Below, piece by piece: positions 30,147-51,343 of a stretch of DNA of 64,000 nucleotides. The translations under genes and the position numbers were made by a program. Position 1 is the stretch's first letter. The number at the start of each line of letters is the position of its first letter. The notes below the pieces were generated by a model. That model searched no databases and was not told the origin of the DNA. It worked only from the letters and a program-made list of their open reading frames with translations. Origin of the DNA: Wenzhouxiangella sp. AB-CW3. GTDB lineage: Bacteria > Pseudomonadota > Gammaproteobacteria > Xanthomonadales > Wenzhouxiangellaceae. Where the stretch lies: assembly GCF_014725735.1 (NCBI RefSeq), contig NZ_CP061368.1, forward strand, positions 2,929,225-2,993,224, given 5' to 3'.

Positions 30147-31277
30147 ATGTCAGAATCGACTCCAGTCACCCCATGCCTGCTGCTGGACACGGCGCGCATG
30201 ACCCGAAACATTGAGCGCATGAGAACCCGGCTTCAGTCGCTGGGGCTTGCATTGCGTCCGCACGTCAAGACCTGCAAGAACATCGACATCGCGCGCCAGC
30301 TGACCGCCGGCCAGCCCGGCGGCGTGACCGTCTCGACCCTGGCCGAGGCCGACTATTTCTTCGAGAACGGCATCACCGACATTCTCTACGCCGTCGGCAT
30401 TGCTCCCGGAAAACTTGCCGCCGTGGCCGATCGCATGGCCCGCGGCATGGCGCTGCGCATCATTCTCGACCATCCGCAAACGGCCACCGCAGTGGCCCGT
30501 GCGGCACGTGAGTTCGACACCCGTTTTCGCGTACTGGTCGAAATCGACGCCGACGGCGAGCGCGCTGGACTGCGTGCCGATGCACCGGAACTGATCGAAA
30601 TCGCCAGCATTCTCGACGCCGCCGGATGTCATGTCGACGGCGTGATGGTGCATGCCGGCGGTTCGTATCACTGCCCCGACGCCGACAGCATGCAGCAAAT
30701 GGCCGAAACCGAACGCGCCAGCGCCGTGGCAGCGGCCGAGCGCTTGCGGCAGGCCGGCCACGCGGCTCCTGTCGTCAGCGTCGGATCCACTCCCACGGCC
30801 ACCTTTGCCCGCGACCTGACCGGCGCCACCGAAGTCCGCGCCGGCGTGCACGTGTTTCAGGATCTGGTCCAGGCCGGCCTGGGCGTTTGCGAAATCGACG
30901 ACATCGCCATCTCGGTGTTGACCGAAGTCATTGGTCACCGTAGCGAAGATGGCCGGCTGCTGGTCGATGCCGGCTGGATGGCGCTGTCGCGTGATCGCGG
31001 CACCGCCGATCAGCCCATCGATCAAGGCTATGGCCTGATCTGCAGCGAGGACGGAGAAGCACTTGATGACATCATCGTCACCGGCACCAACCAGGAGCAC
31101 GGCATCGTGGGCAGACGGGACGGTTCACCGCTGAATCTCGACACGTTCCCCGTTGGCACCCGTTTGCGGGTCCTGCCCAACCATGCCTGTGCCACGGCCG
31201 GGCAGCATGATGGTTACTGGATAGTCGGCAGTCCCGACCAGGCCCGGCGATGGCTGCCGCGCTGCCGCGGTTGGTAA
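30147..31277 (+). CDS. DSD1-family PLP enzyme (D-threonine aldolase / D-serine dehydratase type)
   Basis: The 376-residue product is a fold-type III PLP enzyme. K41 in LRPHVKTCKN is the expected Schiff-base lysine, and the C-terminal NHACATAGQHDGYWIV supplies the metal-binding His/Cys pair typical of D-threonine aldolase and eukaryotic-type D-serine dehydratase. The barrel shows GVTVSTLAEADYFFENGI and VMVHAGGSYHC. The two activities cannot be separated from sequence. Together with ltaE at 24764 the region holds two beta-hydroxy amino acid enzymes of opposite stereochemistry, although they are 4 kb apart. Confidence 0.88.
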   Translation: MSESTPVTPCLLLDTARMTRNIERMRTRLQSLGLALRPHVKTCKNIDIARQLTAGQPGGVTVSTLAEADYFFENGITDILYAVGIAPGKLAAVADRMARGMALRIILDHPQTATAVARAAREFDTRFRVLVEIDADGERAGLRADAPELIEIASILDAAGCHVDGVMVHAGGSYHCPDADSMQQMAETERASAVAAAERLRQAGHAAPVVSVGSTPTATFARDLTGATEVRAGVHVFQDLVQAGLGVCEIDDIAISVLTEVIGHRSEDGRLLVDAGWMALSRDRGTADQPIDQGYGLICSEDGEALDDIIVTGTNQEHGIVGRRDGSPLNLDTFPVGTRLRVLPNHACATAGQHDGYWIVGSPDQARRWLPRCRGW

Positions 31278-31316
31278 ACGGTCCGGCTTGGCCACGAACG
31301 AGGAAGGACTTTATAA

Positions 31317-31679
31317 ATGAGTTACTACCCGCTTCTAAAAAACATCCATATCTTCATTGCGCTGCTCAGTGGCCTGGGGTTCGCCGTGCGAGGTTACCTG
31401 CGCCTGGTCGCGAATCGGCCGCTGAGTCACCCGGTCATACGCATCGCACCGCATATCCTCGATACGCTGCTGCTGGCTACCGGCATCGCACTGTGGGTCA
31501 TGGTGGGATGGACCTTCCTGTCCTGGCTGGGGCTCAAGATCGGCCTGATCGTGGCCTACATCCTGATCGGCATGGCCGCCTTCCGCAAAGGCCACGGCGG
31601 CAGCGGCATCATCCTGTACTGGCTGGCCCTGGGCATCTACCTGGCGATTGCATTCATTGCCGTGCACAAACCGATCTGA
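31317..31679 (+). CDS. SirB2-family integral membrane protein
   Basis: The 120-residue product has four predicted membrane helices and matches SirB2: MSYYPLLKNIHIFIALLSG, LRLVANRPLSHPVIRIAPHILDT (read in two parts), then three more hydrophobic segments. SirB2 proteins have no firm biochemical role. An AGGAAGG Shine-Dalgarno at 31301-31307 supports ATG 31317. It is 39 bases after the DSD1 gene and probably co-transcribed. Confidence 0.88.
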   Translation: MSYYPLLKNIHIFIALLSGLGFAVRGYLRLVANRPLSHPVIRIAPHILDTLLLATGIALWVMVGWTFLSWLGLKIGLIVAYILIGMAAFRKGHGGSGIILYWLALGIYLAIAFIAVHKPI

Positions 31680-31697
31680 ACCCTGACATCAGGGGCT

Positions 31698-31732
31698 AGA
31701 AAAAGAATGCCCCGGCACGTAGGTGCCGGGGC
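31698..31732 (-). terminator. Intrinsic terminator of the repeat-protein operon
   Basis: A perfect 10-base-pair GC-rich stem (GCCCCGGCAC at 31709-31718 with GTGCCGGGGC at 31723-31732, GTAG loop) is followed, read on the minus strand, by ATTCTTTTTC. The T-run lies on the minus-strand side only, so the element ends transcripts coming from the repeat-protein gene at 31819. On the plus strand the hairpin may still help stop the sirB2 transcript. Confidence 0.8.
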
Positions 31733-31818
31733 GGGGCCAACAGCATGTGAATCGCCGTCAGGGGGCAGGGAAGGGGAAGCGATTCACGCGCCCGTCAGCA
31801 AACTGAAACCTCATAGAC

Positions 31819-32745
31819 TCAGGGAAGTGAAATCACTTCAAAGCCTTGGTGCGAATTTTCATGACCAGCGTGTGCAACGAGGACTTCATCGGCGTACCGC
31901 CCGGAGAGCCGATGAACAATCACATGAGTCCCTTCTTCATCGATCACGACTTCGGCGATACCCCAGGCGCCGGATACCGGAGAACAGCTTTCACTTGCCG
32001 CTCCACTGCCGGAACCTTGCACCAGCAGTCTTGAGCCATTGCCACCTACAGATTCGGGCGAACCGCTGCCAGAACCCTGGACCAGAAGGCCTGAATCGCT
32101 GTCGCCTGCACTTTCCGGCTTGCCGCTTCCCGAACCCTGAACAAGCAGACTGCCATCGCTGGCACCGACTGACTCTCCGGCCGCGCCGCTTCCCGAGCCC
32201 TGAACCAACAGACTTCCATCGTTGGCTCCGACCGACTCTCCGGCTGCACCACTTCCCGAGCCCTGAACCAGCAGACTGCCATCGCTAACGCCGACCGACT
32301 CCCCGGCCGCACCGCTTCCCGAGCCTTGTACCAGCAGACCTGGCTGGCCTCCATCATGATTCTCTCCAGCAGCTCCACTTCCAGAGCCGCGGACCAGCGG
32401 GGAGTGACCACCACATTCGCTGGAAGGCGATCCACTGCCCGAACCCTGCACCAAAGGCCTTCCGCCGTCGACCAGAGAATAGAGTGGCACGATCAGGTAA
32501 TCCTGCTGAATGGCATCAGCCGATACCGCGCCGGCCAAGACACTTCCCTCTGCATGCAGGGATATGGTCAGGCCGCTGTCCTGTTGCGAAACATGCAGGG
32601 AAACAGGCTCGGCAGCAATAGCCGACCCCATGACCAGACCCAACGCAACGGCAGCCACACAAAGGCTCCGACACGGACGAGACAGTTCTGCTCCCGTACC
32701 GCTCTTGCCAATCCCCGTTCCAGATTTTTCAATAAAACTCAACAT
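31819..32745 (-). CDS. Exported protein with eight Gly/Ser-rich tandem repeats, function unknown
   Basis: The 308-residue product has a signal peptide (CVAAVALGLVMGSAIAAEPV), a short beta-rich head, then eight repeats of 19-21 residues with core LLVQGSGSGAAGES and a variable acidic end, and a 49-residue tail (EVVIDEEGTHVIVHRLSGRY). Cysteines in the mature part appear only in the first and last repeats (SSECGG and ESCSPV), which could close the array with a disulfide. ATG 32745 has a strong AGGAGAG 6 bases before it; an upstream TTG at 32751 is less likely. It is the last gene of an operon with DUF6502-like and EAL genes and ends at a terminator. I do not recognise the family; a surface or matrix structural role is a guess. 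Confidence 0.85.
   Translation of the reverse strand: MLSFIEKSGTGIGKSGTGAELSRPCRSLCVAAVALGLVMGSAIAAEPVSLHVSQQDSGLTISLHAEGSVLAGAVSADAIQQDYLIVPLYSLVDGGRPLVQGSGSGSPSSECGGHSPLVRGSGSGAAGENHDGGQPGLLVQGSGSGAAGESVGVSDGSLLVQGSGSGAAGESVGANDGSLLVQGSGSGAAGESVGASDGSLLVQGSGSGKPESAGDSDSGLLVQGSGSGSPESVGGNGSRLLVQGSGSGAASESCSPVSGAWGIAEVVIDEEGTHVIVHRLSGRYADEVLVAHAGHENSHQGFEVISLP
31969..32457 (-). repeat. In-frame tandem repeat array of about 60-63 bases, eight units
   Basis: The coding DNA of the exported protein carries eight consecutive units, each encoding (L/P)LV(Q/R)GSGSG plus a variable part. Units 3, 4 and 5 are nearly identical at DNA level over 63 bases, so copy number may change by slippage or recombination. 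The array preserves the reading frame. Confidence 0.9.
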
Positions 32746-32784
32746 ATTCAACTCTCCTGCATTTCGATTATTCCGTCCTACGGC

Positions 32785-33651
32785 TCAGGTTGCCCCAGAC
32801 CGTGCCTCTTCGGTGTTGGTAGGGTTTTCCCAGTAATACCAACCCACACCGATCGAACATTCATCCCGTTTAGATGGATGCAATTCTTCTGCTTCAAGGT
32901 GGTTTTCCACCGCTCTGATATGCGACTCGATTAGCGCACGGATATCCTCCCGCACGATCTCCAGTCGCTCTTTGGGAATTCGATGAGTCCAGCGATCCTG
33001 TTGCAGCCATGAAGAGTCGCTGGAGGTATGTCGTCTCGTGTTGTGCGCAACAGCCCTGCCTAGCCGATTGATCGCAAAACTGCCGGCCTCGATGGCGGTT
33101 CGCTCGGAGGGCTCCACCGGCATGAAAAACGGGTCGACAAGCTCCACACGGGTATCGTCGTCACACAGGCGTACGTTGCCGCTTTCCAGCAGCCGGTCGA
33201 GTGCAGTCTGGGGCGTGACGGCACGCCCTGCAGAGCGGCTGACCAGACGCTGGAAAGTGCTGTGGGGACCATGGATCAGCAGCCTGGCCGGTGCACCCGT
33301 ATCGGGATCAATAAAGGACTCGTCCATTCGCCACATTTCCAGAATGGCAGCTTCCGAGCAGACATCGGCCAGTGCCATCTCGCCATCTCGCGTCTCGTAG
33401 ACCTTGATTGCTCGGCCGTCCATTCCACACAACAGTGAGAGGGCCGAAGTCGTGACCCGCTTGTCGGGGTTCTCCGCTTCCAGGTAGCGACGCGCCTCGG
33501 TGACGTAGGCTTCTCGAACCAGCTCCACCAGTGCGCTACAGGAAATTCTCCCGACCGCGAAGCGGACCAGGGGCCGGATCATTCGCATCATGGCGCCAAC
33601 CAGCCACCCGACCTGCGCCCTGCTCTCGTCTTGTCTTGCCAACTGTCCCAT
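32785..33651 (-). CDS. DUF6502-like protein
   Basis: The 288-residue cytoplasmic product resembles the DUF6502 family: an N-terminal helical part with MIRPLVRFAVGRISCSALVE followed by LVREAYVTEARRYL, then a winged-helix-like region (RVTTSALSLLCGMDGRAIKVY) and a weakly conserved C-terminal half. Families with this layout are suspected DNA-binding regulators, but no function is established to my knowledge. It sits 2 bases after the EAL gene and 39 bases before the repeat-protein start, so the three form one transcript. Family assignment is from memory of the pattern and is moderately sure. Confidence 0.7.
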   Translation of the reverse strand: MGQLARQDESRAQVGWLVGAMMRMIRPLVRFAVGRISCSALVELVREAYVTEARRYLEAENPDKRVTTSALSLLCGMDGRAIKVYETRDGEMALADVCSEAAILEMWRMDESFIDPDTGAPARLLIHGPHSTFQRLVSRSAGRAVTPQTALDRLLESGNVRLCDDDTRVELVDPFFMPVEPSERTAIEAGSFAINRLGRAVAHNTRRHTSSDSSWLQQDRWTHRIPKERLEIVREDIRALIESHIRAVENHLEAEELHPSKRDECSIGVGWYYWENPTNTEEARSGAT

Positions 33652-33653
33652 GC

Positions 33654-34400
33654 TCAGATCTCCATGATCTCGGGCTCATGCACCAGGTACCCCTGGGCGT
33701 AACCAACCCCCAGATCCTTCAGCAGCTGCAGCTCCTGAGGACGCTCCACACCTTCGGCCACCACCACGCCGCCGAGCCGATCAGCCAGCGTGGTCAGGCA
33801 ATCGACCACGGCGCGCTGATGACTGCGAGAGTCGAATCCACTGATGACCCGACCGTCGATCTTGACGATGTCCACCACGCCGGCGGCGCACAGGTCAAAG
33901 CAGTTCATGCGACTGCCGAAATCGTCCAGTGCGATCAGGACACCGCGCTGCCGCAGCAGGCGGGCATGCTCAATCAGTCTTGAGCGGTTGCTGCAATCGG
34001 CGAACTCGATCAGCTCCAGACACAGCGAATGACCCTGCTCGCCAAGCAGCTTGTGCATCCGGGTCACGGTATCCACGAAATACGGAGCGATGAAAGATTC
34101 GGGATGGGCATTGACGCTAATGCGCGTCGGCCCTGCGCGCTCGGCCAGCCAGTACCCGGCGCGCTCAAGCACCTCCACATCGGTCACCGAGGGCGGGCGA
34201 TGCAGGTAGAGGCACTCGACAAAACCGGCGGGAGAGCCGTTGAAACAGGCCGAGTCGGGCCGGATCAGCAACTCGTACCAGGGCCAGTCGGCACCAAAAA
34301 CCGCGCCATCGGCCTGCAGCGCCTGAATGCGCTGGGCCGCGAAGGCGCAGTGATCCCCTGTTGCGGACAGGGAAATGGTTTGTGCGAGTGGACTGGCCAT
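33654..34400 (-). CDS. Stand-alone EAL-domain protein, likely c-di-GMP phosphodiesterase
   Basis: The 248-residue protein is a single EAL domain with no sensor or membrane part. The catalytic set looks intact: E43 in YELLIRP, N in ISVNAHP, both glutamates of LELIEF, the aspartate pair in LDDFGS, K in VKIDG, E in AEGVE and Q in QGYL. It should linearise c-di-GMP, although the motif spelling is divergent and it could be a binding-only protein. It is the first gene of the operon; GAGGAA lies 6 bases before ATG 34400. Confidence 0.87.
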   Translation of the reverse strand: MASPLAQTISLSATGDHCAFAAQRIQALQADGAVFGADWPWYELLIRPDSACFNGSPAGFVECLYLHRPPSVTDVEVLERAGYWLAERAGPTRISVNAHPESFIAPYFVDTVTRMHKLLGEQGHSLCLELIEFADCSNRSRLIEHARLLRQRGVLIALDDFGSRMNCFDLCAAGVVDIVKIDGRVISGFDSRSHQRAVVDCLTTLADRLGGVVVAEGVERPQELQLLKDLGVGYAQGYLVHEPEIMEI

Positions 34401-34421
34401 CTATTTTCCTCAATATTGGCA

Positions 34422-34439
34422 TTTGCCATTTATGGCAAA
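34422..34439. promoter_or_regulatory. Palindromic operator candidate at the EAL operon start
   Basis: Perfect palindrome TTTGCCAT-TT-ATGGCAAA, 18 bases, placed directly downstream of the -10 element of the minus-strand promoter and across its expected transcription start. That is the usual place for a repressor site. The repressor is unknown. Confidence 0.7.
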
Positions 34440-34441
34440 CG

Positions 34442-34470
34442 ACAGTATCGTCAGTTGCCGCGATTGTCAA
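34442..34470 (-). promoter_or_regulatory. Promoter of the EAL/DUF6502/repeat-protein operon
   Basis: On the minus strand a perfect TTGACA (34470-34465) is separated by 17 bases from TACTGT (34447-34442), a sigma-70 arrangement with a weak -10. The predicted start near 34435 lies in the 18-base palindrome, about 35 bases before the EAL ATG. Confidence 0.65.
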
Positions 34471-34574
34471 GCACTTTCTGAACATGGTGGCCCGGCCACA
34501 TCGGCCGGACCGCTTTGAGTTGTGCCAATGCTTTCGCTTCGCTACGCTTCTGACGCAACCACGGAGACTTCCGA

Positions 34575-36359
34575 ATGTCGACCAGCACCCGACTCGTCTG
34601 CGCCGTACTCGCCACCCTGGCGTTCACGGCGGCCTGCAACAAAACCGATACCAACGCGGCTGACGAGACCACCTACCGCCACGCCATTGACGGCGTTCCC
34701 GCAAGCCTGGACCCGGCCCACGCGGCCGATGTCTATTCGTCCACCCTGGTGGTGAATCTTTTTGACACGCTCTACCGTTACCGCTACCTGGAGCGCCCCT
34801 ATCAACTGGCCCCCAACCTGGCAGCCGACATGCCGGAGGTGTCCGACGATGGCTTGGTCTGGACCATCCGGATGCGCGAGGACGCAGTGTTCGCACCCGA
34901 CCCGGCTTTCCCGGATGGGACGGGCCGAAGGGTGACTGCCGCCGACGTGGTGTATTCCCTGGCGCGGCATTTCGATCCGGCCACCCGGTCGCAGGGTGCC
35001 TGGCTCTGGCGCGACCGGATTCTGGGACTCGACCAATGGGTGGAGTCCGGCGCCGACCCGGATCAGCCCATCGAAGGTTTGCAGGCGCTCGACGAGCACA
35101 CGCTTCAGATCACACTCAAGAGACCATTCCCACAGCTGGCCCACACCCTGGCCATGGCCCTGTCGGCCGTCGTCCCCAGAGAGGTGGTGGAAAGTCGCGG
35201 GCGGGAGTTCGGAACCCATCCGGTCGGATCCGGGCCGTTCACTCTTGCGCGACGCGACGAAAGCCAGGCGGTGCTGCTCCGACGGCCGGACTTTGTCCGC
35301 GACCCCTTCGATCTGGCCTACGAGGGACATGACCCCGAACTGCATGCGGAACTGGAACTGGAGCACCTGGACGGTCGTCACTACCCCTTCGTCGACCGAC
35401 TGGAGATCCACTTCATTACCGAACCCGGATCACGCTGGAGCAGCTTCGCAGCTGGCGAGGTCGACAATGTCATGGTGCCGCCCGACCAGGCCACGCGGAT
35501 ACTGTCGTCACGAGATCCAATCCGTTTTACACCGGAGATCAGTCAGCAGTACCACAGCATGGCTTCACCCGAGGCCGGCTTTGTGCTCTATGGCTTTAAT
35601 ATGGCCAACCAGGACATCGGTCACCACCCGGAACCGACACGTGACCAGGCCAACCGCCAGCTGCGCTGTGCCATGCGCGACGCCTTCGACTGGGACCGCT
35701 ACAACGAGACCTTCCATCATGGCCTGGCCCAGGTATTCCCCGGCGCCATTCCGCCATTTGTGGAGGCGTTCGATCCGTCTCATGGAGAGGACAGCATCCG
35801 CCACCAACCCGAGCGGGCCCGCGAACACATGGATGAACTGGCCGCAACGGAGCAGTTGCCGCGACTGACCTACGGCATGGAAGCCAGCGTGCATCAGCGC
35901 CAGATGTTCGAACAGTTTCGCCAGCGCATGGTGGAAGCCGGCCTGCCACGTGACCACATGCAATCGCGGGCCTTTGCCTCGTTCGGGGAATACTCCCGCG
36001 CCATTGCCGCTGGCGAGCTTGATATCTTTCTTCTCGGCTGGACCATGGCCTGGCCGGATGCACAGTATGCGCTGCAACTGTTTTATGGCCCCAATGCCGC
36101 CCCCGGAGCCAACAGTTTCAGCTACCGCAACCCGGAGTTCGATGCGCTGTTCGAGCGCGCTACCGCGCTGCCTGACGGTCCCGAGCGGACCGCCCTCTAT
36201 CGTCAGCTCAATGACATCGTGATGGACGACTGCGTGTTCATCGGCAGCCTGGCACGCACCCGTCTGCACCTGTGGCACCGGCACGCGCACATGCAACCCG
36301 ACCGCGAGATGCTGGGCGGTTTCTTCCTGCGCTTTGTCGATGTGGGAGCGCGACCTTGA
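34575..36359 (+). CDS. Peptide-type ABC transporter substrate-binding lipoprotein (SBP family 5)
   Basis: The 594-residue product is a DppA/OppA-type binding protein. It has a lipobox signal (TLAFTAAC, C21), the family start IDGVPASLDPAHAADVYS, the domain I/II strands (LVWTIRMREDAVF, TLQITLKRPFPQL, VGSGPFTLARRDESQAVLLRR) and a C-terminal GWTMAWPDAQYALQLFYG. It is tethered in the periplasm and should deliver oligopeptides or another ligand to the two permeases that follow. Its stop overlaps the TTG start of the first permease. Confidence 0.9.
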   Translation: MSTSTRLVCAVLATLAFTAACNKTDTNAADETTYRHAIDGVPASLDPAHAADVYSSTLVVNLFDTLYRYRYLERPYQLAPNLAADMPEVSDDGLVWTIRMREDAVFAPDPAFPDGTGRRVTAADVVYSLARHFDPATRSQGAWLWRDRILGLDQWVESGADPDQPIEGLQALDEHTLQITLKRPFPQLAHTLAMALSAVVPREVVESRGREFGTHPVGSGPFTLARRDESQAVLLRRPDFVRDPFDLAYEGHDPELHAELELEHLDGRHYPFVDRLEIHFITEPGSRWSSFAAGEVDNVMVPPDQATRILSSRDPIRFTPEISQQYHSMASPEAGFVLYGFNMANQDIGHHPEPTRDQANRQLRCAMRDAFDWDRYNETFHHGLAQVFPGAIPPFVEAFDPSHGEDSIRHQPERAREHMDELAATEQLPRLTYGMEASVHQRQMFEQFRQRMVEAGLPRDHMQSRAFASFGEYSRAIAAGELDIFLLGWTMAWPDAQYALQLFYGPNAAPGANSFSYRNPEFDALFERATALPDGPERTALYRQLNDIVMDDCVFIGSLARTRLHLWHRHAHMQPDREMLGGFFLRFVDVGARP

Positions 36360-49132: not shown

Positions 49133-51343
49133 TCAGTCCGTGCCGCCCTGCGGCTGCACCGGCCTGTATCGTTCGAGCAGATCAGCCAGCGGCATGGGGC
49201 GATCGAAGTAGTACCCCTGCAGCAGGTGGCAACCCATGGCGGCGAGCGCCCGAGCATGCTCGGCAGTCTCCACTCCTTCGGCCACCACTTCCAGGCCCAG
49301 TGCCTGCGCCATCTTGACCAGTGCCTCGACCAGCGCATACTGTGACCTGTCTTCCAGCATGCTGGCCACAAAAGCCCCATCGACCTTGATCTGGGTGACG
49401 GGGAAATTCCTGAGGTAGGTGACTGACGAATAGCCGGTGCCGAAATCATCGATCGACAGGCGCACGCCACCCTTGTGCAACCATCGCAGCAACTGGTGCT
49501 GCCGATCGCGGTCAGGCATGAGCAGCGATTCGGTCAGCTCGACCGTCAGGTACTTGGGCTCGAACGCTTCTTCCTCAAGAATTTCCAGCCATCGTCGCAC
49601 TATCTTGTAGTCGTTGAACTCGCGCGGTGAACGATTGATCGAGAGCGTGATGTCCAACCCCTCGGCCCGCATTCTCCGGCCATCAATGCATCCCTGCTTC
49701 AGCACCATCAGCCCCAGATCGCGGATGACCCCGGTCCTCTCGGCCACGGGAATGAAATCGGCCGGGCTGAGCAGGCCTTTCTCGGGGTGCTGCCAGCGTA
49801 CCAGGGCCTCGACCGAGCGCAGCGAACCATCCGTGGCATCGACCAGCGGCTGGTAATACACCTCGAACTGATCGTCGGCCAGTCCACGCTGAATCTCTCG
49901 ATGCAGCAGCAAGTGGGTTTCCGACTGGTGACGCAACGACTCGTTGAAAAAGTAGGACGTGGCTCGGCCGGCCGACTTGGCCGCGTACATCGCCAGATCG
50001 GCGTGCTTGAGCAGGTCGGTGGTCGTGGTGCCATCATCCGGATAAACGGCAATGCCAACCGAGCCGCCGATGCTGACTTCGTGGCCGGCGACCTCAGTGG
50101 GTGGCTGCAGGGCGGCGAGCACCTGGTCGGCGGCCAGTTCGGCGTCGACGGGATCGCCCAACCCCCTGATCAGGACAACGAATTCGTCACCACCAAGGCG
50201 CGCCACCATGTCTTCGGCGCGAACCGCCGCGACAATGCGCTGACTGCAGGCCTGCAACAACTCATCGCCGGCCTCGTGGCCCAGAGAGTCGTTGATCTCC
50301 TTGAAATGATCGAGATCGAGAAACATCAGCGCAAAGCGCAGATCCTGCTGTCGGCAACGGCGAATTTCGGCGGTCAGATGCTGGGTGAAAAACTGGCGGT
50401 TGGGCAGGCCGGTCAGCCCGTCGTAGCGTGCCTGGTGACTGATGGTCGAGAATGCACGGCGCAAGCGAATATGGCTGATCAGCAAACCGTGCATCAACAA
50501 TGTCGCGGTCAACGCAAGCATTACTCCAAGCAGCCAGCGACCCGAATAGGTCCCCAGAGGCTCCTCCCAGGACAGCGAATCCGGCATTGCAGCCAGACGC
50601 CACTGCCCCACCGGCAGGTCTACCGGCATCATGACCGGATCGAGTTCCCAGACTCGATCCAGCCCCACAATGGCTTCTCCTTCCAGGCCCGTTCCATCCA
50701 CGCCGCGCAAAGCCACCGACCACTGGTCGTCGTCAAGCAGCCCGGCATCTGCAAACAGAGCTTCGTGATCGATCACCTGGGAAACAATGCCCCACAGTTC
50801 ATCACTGCGGTGCAGGTAGACCGGCACTCTTGCAATCAGGGCCTGTCCCCCCTGGACAAGATCGACCGGACCGCTGATGAGTATATCGCCAGCCTCCAGC
50901 GCCGCCTCGATCGAGCCAAGCTGTTCGGGGTTGTCCCGGTAGTCCAGACCCAGTGCCGCCTCGTTGCCGGCCAGCGGGTACACATGGCGGACGACCAGGT
51001 CCGGCGCCACGGCCACATGGCGAGTGTGCAAGTCATCGGTCAGGACTTCCTCGGCCAGACGCTTGACGCGCTCGGGGTCAATCACCGAATCGACGGCCAG
51101 CTCGGCGCGCAATACACGCATGGCCATCAGGTTGGCACCGAGATGCCCCTCGATACGCGCTCGCAGGGTGGCCAGTTCCTGCAGGGCGTGGAACCGCTTC
51201 ATCTCGGCGTCGGCCACCTGCACGGACTGGATATGACGGGCCACAAGCCCCATGCACAGCGCGAACAGTGCCACTGCGAACAGCGCATTCCCGGCCACCT
51301 TCATCGGTTTCGAAACCCGGCCGTCATCTTGAACAATGCCCAC
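49133..51343 (-). CDS. CHASE-GGDEF-EAL c-di-GMP turnover protein
   Basis: The 736-residue inner-membrane protein has a membrane helix (about 17-37), a periplasmic CHASE-type sensor domain, a second helix (about 270-292), then a GGDEF domain (intact GGDEF near 388, with the inhibitory I-site RAED five residues upstream) and an EAL domain (EALVRW near 511, with SINRS, ELTES, DDFGTGY, KVDGAF, AEGVET, QGYYF). Both catalytic motifs look intact, so it could make or degrade c-di-GMP. GTG 51343 is chosen; ATG 51304 would still keep the first helix. Confidence 0.92.
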   Translation of the reverse strand: MGIVQDDGRVSKPMKVAGNALFAVALFALCMGLVARHIQSVQVADAEMKRFHALQELATLRARIEGHLGANLMAMRVLRAELAVDSVIDPERVKRLAEEVLTDDLHTRHVAVAPDLVVRHVYPLAGNEAALGLDYRDNPEQLGSIEAALEAGDILISGPVDLVQGGQALIARVPVYLHRSDELWGIVSQVIDHEALFADAGLLDDDQWSVALRGVDGTGLEGEAIVGLDRVWELDPVMMPVDLPVGQWRLAAMPDSLSWEEPLGTYSGRWLLGVMLALTATLLMHGLLISHIRLRRAFSTISHQARYDGLTGLPNRQFFTQHLTAEIRRCRQQDLRFALMFLDLDHFKEINDSLGHEAGDELLQACSQRIVAAVRAEDMVARLGGDEFVVLIRGLGDPVDAELAADQVLAALQPPTEVAGHEVSIGGSVGIAVYPDDGTTTTDLLKHADLAMYAAKSAGRATSYFFNESLRHQSETHLLLHREIQRGLADDQFEVYYQPLVDATDGSLRSVEALVRWQHPEKGLLSPADFIPVAERTGVIRDLGLMVLKQGCIDGRRMRAEGLDITLSINRSPREFNDYKIVRRWLEILEEEAFEPKYLTVELTESLLMPDRDRQHQLLRWLHKGGVRLSIDDFGTGYSSVTYLRNFPVTQIKVDGAFVASMLEDRSQYALVEALVKMAQALGLEVVAEGVETAEHARALAAMGCHLLQGYYFDRPMPLADLLERYRPVQPQGGTD

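Follow-up and report, generated by a model that had tools for sequence, protein, structure and literature searches.

Wenzhouxiangella sp. AB-CW3 is described as a predator of Gram-positive bacteria that comes from soda lakes, with a circular genome (CP061368) of 3,844,697 nucleotides (nt) (PMC7691419). Within a 64,000-nt stretch of this genome, hereafter the window, we analyzed three adjacent genes on the minus strand, encoding a stand-alone EAL-domain protein of 248 amino acids (33654-34400), a DUF6502-like protein of 288 amino acids (32785-33651) and an exported repeat protein of 308 amino acids (31819-32745). The EAL stop codon lies 2 nt before the ATG of the DUF6502 gene, and a gap of 39 nt precedes the repeat gene, which has an AGGAGA of its own ahead of its ATG. 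An earlier reading of the letters of the window (the sequence-only reading) had proposed that these genes form a self-contained unit, complete with promoter, operator and terminator; the gene order is confirmed from coordinates and comparison, and the control elements lie where they had been noted and recur in relatives, in support of a self-contained unit. Comparison also points to two features which that reading had overlooked, namely that the conserved EAL-bearing unit contains a commoner core, consisting of DUF6502 and a tagged exported protein, and that the operator follows DUF6502 and not the EAL gene.

Homologues of DUF6502 were found in 49 of 101 genomes, that of AB-CW3 included, and the surroundings of 73 DUF6502 places, a subset of all matches, were read. 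An EAL match stands directly upstream of DUF6502 in 27 of the 73, one of them a remnant (L051), and the order EAL, DUF6502, exported protein is seen in 26, comprising the window and 25 other loci; adjacency in related genomes, the point on which the sequence-only reading had beforehand let its proposal depend, is kept. Among the 26 loci with a full EAL, a GxG-motif protein is flagged downstream in 25, while the 26th (L048) has a spaced VEKSGTGI array; one of the 25 (L128) encodes an exported body of a different kind without the array, and in L047 the GxG repeats are present and the array absent. One explanation of this arrangement, which we consider unlikely, is that inheritance alone keeps EAL and DUF6502 side by side, with the EAL protein acting as an independent phosphodiesterase that shares the promoter. 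In its favor, the EAL gene is absent from all 29 DUF6502 loci read elsewhere in class Gammaproteobacteria, is apparently lost in several Wenzhouxiangella lineages as judged by a DUF6502 tree (which left out L043, L044 and matches of fewer than 180 model positions) and survives as the remnant in L051. Against it, the three-gene unit is kept in three families (f1, that of the window; f5, L127; f6, L076), and EAL-DUF6502 adjacency persists in loci whose transporter and SirB neighbours have been rearranged or could not be located (L046, L054, L060, L061).

The remnant in L051 (5397-5861 of that stretch) retains no more of the EAL profile than positions 15-66 and 181-237; it immediately precedes a stand-alone DUF6502 gene and looks like operon decay, although the stretch ends right after DUF6502 and a repeat protein may lie beyond it. 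Multiplied DUF6502 genes were also seen: the genome of one family member (G031; L059, L109-L120) has 17 matches, of which 14 were read, none with EAL upstream and only L059 with a GxG neighbour, and in family f8 (L122, L123, L125) DUF6502 genes lie close together on opposite strands, besides a copy with a tagged partner.

The predicted promoter, identified from sequence and comparison, consists of TTGACA at 34465-34470 and TACTGT at 34442-34447 (minus strand), 17 nt apart as had been claimed, with TATTGT as the -10 hexamer in most aligned relatives. By consensus alone it is unremarkable: the -10 hexamer agrees with the consensus at 3 of 6 positions, so that the promoter was not listed by a consensus scan, which returned 1 other site vs. 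1.1 expected. Its strength comes from comparison, since a core of the form TTG[AC]-N19-TAnnGTC was found upstream of all 22 EAL-bearing operons tested first, vs. 0.25% (0.0025) of shuffled regions, a rate that flatters the core because the expression was written after inspection. The total stands at 22 of 25 testable EAL-bearing operons (L042 was cut too short), all 22 in family f1, and the same promoter precedes 4 of 7 DUF6502 genes that have neither a full EAL nor a visible repeat partner (L053, L056, L057, L064). At the other end of the unit, the intrinsic terminator noted earlier is present at 31709-31732 (minus strand; 10 pairs, 9 of them G-C, then ATTCTTTTTC); a scan of the region gave 4 terminator-like sites vs. 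2.9 expected, and a similar terminator lies 46-129 nt past the last gene in 16 of 20 loci, window included, a count made without a shuffled control.

The sequence-only reading had placed an 18-base palindrome on the start site; it is indeed there, and had gone unrecognized as one of three overlapping dyads in phase. This palindrome, O2 (TTTGCCATAAATGGCAAA, 34422-34439, minus strand as are the other two), has 8-bp arms around 2 central bases and covers the predicted start site; nowhere else in the AB-CW3 genome does it recur with 2 mismatches or fewer, and two further places match at 3. O1 (CTGACGATACTGTCGT, 34439-34454) covers the -10 and O0 (TTGACAATCGCGGCAA, 34455-34470) the -35 hexamer. When dyad symmetry was scored across 22 operons for centres from -40 to +45, the peaks fell at +16.5 (0.75; O2), +0.5 (0.66; O1) and -15.5 (0.58; O0) over a mean of 0.26, which puts the three sites in a 16-bp register across start, -10 and -35; the anchor letters fix half of the +0.5 and -15.5 sites and none of the +16.5 site. 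Mean pairwise identity among 16 loci was 0.64 at the operator vs. 0.27-0.28 in the flanks, the value of 0.85 at the -10 being partly set by the anchor, and L045 and L047 being anchored one dyad off; in the symmetry scoring, the second of two anchors served for these two loci. The stand-alone DUF6502 genes that share the promoter (L053, L056, L057, L064) each carry a perfect 5-pair dyad at +0.5 with the half-site TAGAC, and they cluster on the tree with L048 and L049, both of which still have EAL; the EAL operon of L048 has an ATAGAC-type palindrome (ATAGACAGTATTGTCTAT), so that the half-site goes with the DUF6502 clade and persists where the partner genes are gone. Because a DUF6502 clade without both partners keeps the dyad with another half-site, DUF6502 is probably the autoregulator of the operon. 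In other gammaproteobacterial families, a TTGGGAAATATTTCCCAA-type palindrome was seen upstream of the DUF6502 genes of L134, L141 and L147.

As for the DUF6502 protein itself, the label given to it earlier holds by homology of its relatives, whereas the window protein has no match to PF20112 at E<=1 and falls below the Pfam gathering cut-off. PF20112 is matched by 24 of 26 aligned relatives at E<=1, and orthologues 61-66% identical to the window protein (G011, G024, G006, G016, G022) exceed the cut-off; from this homology to accepted members we assign the window protein to the DUF6502 superfamily. An AlphaFold 2 (AF2) model built from 26 sequences (mean predicted local distance difference test score, pLDDT, 77; predicted template modelling score, pTM, 0.60) contains a helix-helix-hairpin at 133-171. 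A Foldseek search with this model gave weak hits throughout, many of them to helix-turn-helix or winged-helix regulators; the top rows included regulators of the MarR, Zur, TetR and AraC types along with chains of ORC and COP9, and the winged helices of cullin WHB domains aligned with template modelling (TM) scores of 0.53-0.63 by target length. A DUF6502 profile had no match among PDB sequences at E<=10. The model hints that the DUF6502 protein may be a winged-helix DNA-binding regulator. The family is present in 60 of 274 sampled gammaproteobacterial genomes, that of AB-CW3 included, and neither DUF6502 nor PF20112 was named in any paper in a literature search outside which most subscription papers lay.

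The EAL protein matches the Pfam EAL family well above cut-off (E=9.8e-31; 107.4 bits vs. 31.3) and retains E43, R47, N97, E129, D159, D160, K180, E216 and Q236. In an alignment of 20 operon-linked EAL proteins the metal ligands, the catalytic lysine and glutamine and the R of ExLxR are invariant in all 20, with residue roles as given in PMC7290235. The catalytic residues are intact as the sequence-only reading had it, whereas loop 6 departs from the canonical form: characterized EAL enzymes have DFG(T/A)GYSS, described as required for dimerization and for binding of Mg2+ and cyclic diguanosine monophosphate (c-di-GMP) (PMC7290235), and the window protein has DDFGSRMNC, most Wenzhouxiangella members carrying SRxNCFDL or a near variant. 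Like EAL phosphodiesterases with a changed loop 6, the window protein keeps its metal ligands and catalytic lysine; the difference is that in most Wenzhouxiangella members a clade-specific SRxNCFDL replaces the loop, with no decay. We read the protein as a working yet specialized enzyme, likely a c-di-GMP phosphodiesterase by its residues. A second open reading frame (ORF) containing EAL lies in the window at 49133-51343, with 30.7% identity to the operon EAL over 153 residues.

The exported repeat protein had been recognized by its GSGSG repeats, which are present as eight V(Q/R)GSGSG units spaced 19-21 residues apart (32002-32451, minus strand), whereas a second repeat, KSGTG, ahead of the signal peptide had been missed. 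This N-terminal KSGTGIGKSGTG array (32692-32727, minus strand) comprises 2 KSGTG units, followed by a hydrophobic segment and, as judged by eye, an AIA/AEP site after residue 44. The repeats split a beta domain into an N-half (49-90) and a C-half (262-306), for which AF2 gave pLDDT mostly of 70-91, vs. about 30-52 for the repeats; the C-terminal half recurs in relatives by family alignment. There was no Pfam match at E<=1, DUF5666 included, and a known family or fold found no support in NCBIfam or PHROGs or, at E<=0.001, in PDB; a CsoS2_M match that fell below cut-off in the relative L096 (E=0.0012) was put down to composition. In listed relatives the array starts at most about 20 residues from the chosen start codon, and an AGGAG-like site precedes nearly all of the array ORFs, none being clear in L076. 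The 125 array units between them draw on every synonymous codon to encode one heptapeptide (all six for Ser, four for Thr, four for Gly), which argues that the EKSGTGI array is held as peptide and not as DNA; an RNA-level role is rejected on this codon diversity and because 31000-35500 has no Rfam match at E<=0.5. Among 84,980 species scanned, tandem KSGTGIxKSGTG was returned in 27 stretches, assigned only to Gammaproteobacteria, Xanthomonadales/Lysobacterales, Oceanospirillales or Wenzhouxiangella, and 25 of the 27 have a DUF6502 gene (twice cut) no more than 120 nt upstream. Of the other two, L104 is cut upstream, with DUF6502 visible in L032, a contig of equal length, and L105 has its upstream side cut and a DUF6502 paralogue downstream. 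The array strings were not found in the literature search, subject to its scope given above. Another type of exported partner, which past its signal peptide starts with a motif of the GxWxxP type, was observed beside DUF6502 in L072, L073, L074, L128 and L130; the two that were scanned gave no convincing Pfam family.

The link between DUF6502 and a tag extends beyond this array. Among the 29 class-level DUF6502 loci, 28 have a readable downstream gene (L133 is cut; the partners in L131, L132, L141 and L153 were read by eye). Within the first 110 residues, and mostly after the lipobox, xGTG occurs in 24 of the 28 partners, GIxGTG in 19 and GIxGTGI in 11; the exceptions are L138 and L151 with xGSG, L130 with a later GSG and L148 with none. 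As a control, xGTG occurs in 16 of 346 ORFs, a crude comparison since these are six-frame ORFs of other genomes. The bodies of the partners vary: 19 of 28 match DUF5666, and fn3, Calx-beta and CarboxypepD_reg also occur. When DUF5666 proteins were sorted by position, the tag was present in 10 of 10 encoded directly after DUF6502, in 1 of 6 whose stretch had DUF6502 in another position and in 0 of 11 whose stretch had none (10/10 vs. 1/17, Fisher p = 1.3e-6, with a tag expression set post hoc, some stretches cut 5' and some genomes overlapping with the 28); the sorting dropped four ORF rows without lipobox (L173, the second ORF of L174, L178, L185). By these comparisons, an exported protein whose gene immediately follows DUF6502 bears a tag near its N-terminus, a rule that the KSGTG array of the window fits. 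The DUF6502 (PF20112)-DUF5666 (PF18914) pairs resemble the window in that DUF6502 is directly followed by a GTG-tagged exported protein; the window differs in that its partner has no DUF5666 match, that the tag forms a tandem array placed ahead of the signal peptide, and that the EAL gene is added. DUF5666 was found in 59 of 229 sampled gammaproteobacterial genomes and is named in existing literature, with PF18914 occurring in work on growth pH. The strings GIGGTGI and GISGTGI were not found in the literature search, in which GGIGGTG occurs in work on antifungal peptides.

Taken as a whole, we surmise that the window operon is autoregulated, with a winged-helix DUF6502 protein acting on the phased dyads, the EAL protein providing c-di-GMP input and a tagged exported protein as output, a reading whose chances we judge to be about even. 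The DUF6502 protein would bind two or three overlapping dyads of the TTGCC-N6-GGCAA type, 16 bp apart, and, since these cover the -35, the -10 and the start of its own promoter, would repress or tune the whole unit. The EAL phosphodiesterase would most likely supply the DUF6502 protein with local c-di-GMP input, and the exported, tagged repeat protein would act at the cell envelope. The c-di-GMP step is proposed by analogy with the trigger phosphodiesterases of E. coli, PdeR (YciR) and PdeL (PMC5052742). Both are active EAL proteins, PdeR being linked to a transcription factor and PdeL to DNA; the promoter region of PdeL includes an imperfect palindrome to which PdeL itself binds (PMC5052742), a likeness to the window operator. 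In contrast to PdeR and PdeL, the EAL and helix-turn-helix (HTH) parts in the window are encoded by separate neighbouring genes with conserved adjacency; the putative HTH is of DUF6502 type and not LuxR-like, and the same operon supplies a tagged exported output.

Several observations weigh against this autoregulated arrangement: 1) the EAL part is not essential to the core, as the DUF6502 tree needs 7 or more changes to account for its presence, and with an atypical loop 6 its activity may be low; 2) Foldseek returned nothing for the DUF6502 model at E<=0.001, with TM-scores by query length of at most 0.20 in the rows shown; 3) O1 is a poor dyad in the window itself, single palindromes are mostly non-significant on their own (shuffle p of 0.01 for the window and up to 0.78 for other EAL operons), and the 29 class-level loci gave a weakly positive 5 strong upstream dyads vs. 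1.2 expected; 4) the promoter core is missing from 3 of the 7 stand-alone DUF6502 genes (L051, L052, L062) and absent in three more distant EAL operons (L076, L127, L128), which makes it a feature of the main f1 lineage; 5) the operator could instead be the target of another regulator, or act for the transporter gene that runs divergently at 34575. In several relatives a SirB-family gene (30147-31679 region in the window) and its neighbour, a 376-amino-acid gene (30147-31277), adjoin the operon or a stand-alone DUF6502.

It is conceivable, if improbable, that DUF6502 is instead a sensor of export status, which recognizes the GTG tag on its partner while export is under way or still to come, with EAL as a second input. 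In the clade of the window the array would be left in the cytoplasm together with the signal peptide; promoter activity would report export of the product, and DUF6502 itself may then read the array. The tag goes with the position directly downstream of DUF6502, as seen in the DUF5666 proteins, and partner bodies vary while the only alignment columns to reach 90% across the 28 partners are the lipobox Cys and three tag glycines; moreover, the array precedes the hydrophobic segment and is conserved at the peptide level. However, the tag of the lipoproteins lies in the exported part, so that a cytosolic reader would see it only briefly, and a periplasmic reader is equally possible. The model of the sequence-only reading, in which c-di-GMP would control how much is made of a structural or adhesive protein outside the cell, seems to us a poor prospect, for although the EAL residues are intact and the exported Gly/Ser-rich repeats vary in number between species, those repeats are of low confidence in AF2, the Pfam (E<=1) and PDB fold (E<=0.001) searches gave no match and EAL is missing from every class-level DUF6502 locus read.

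More broadly, and tentatively, we speculate that DUF6502 and its downstream neighbour may constitute an undescribed, widespread envelope- or export-sensing system of Gammaproteobacteria, in which the GIxGTG(I) tag would mark an exported partner of whatever body for the DUF6502 pathway. In the Xanthomonadales relatives the tag would have shifted to a place before the signal peptide and been repeated to form a cytoplasmic array, while some families would have gained EAL as well, with c-di-GMP and tag status read together at a promoter under phased operators. Our analysis joins DUF6502 and DUF5666 in one testable idea, that of an autoregulator with an exported partner bearing a fixed peptide tag. 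With operator, tag array and c-di-GMP enzyme all inside 2.8 kb, the operon of AB-CW3 offers a convenient handle on the DUF6502 system and may help to show the role of two uncharacterized protein families.

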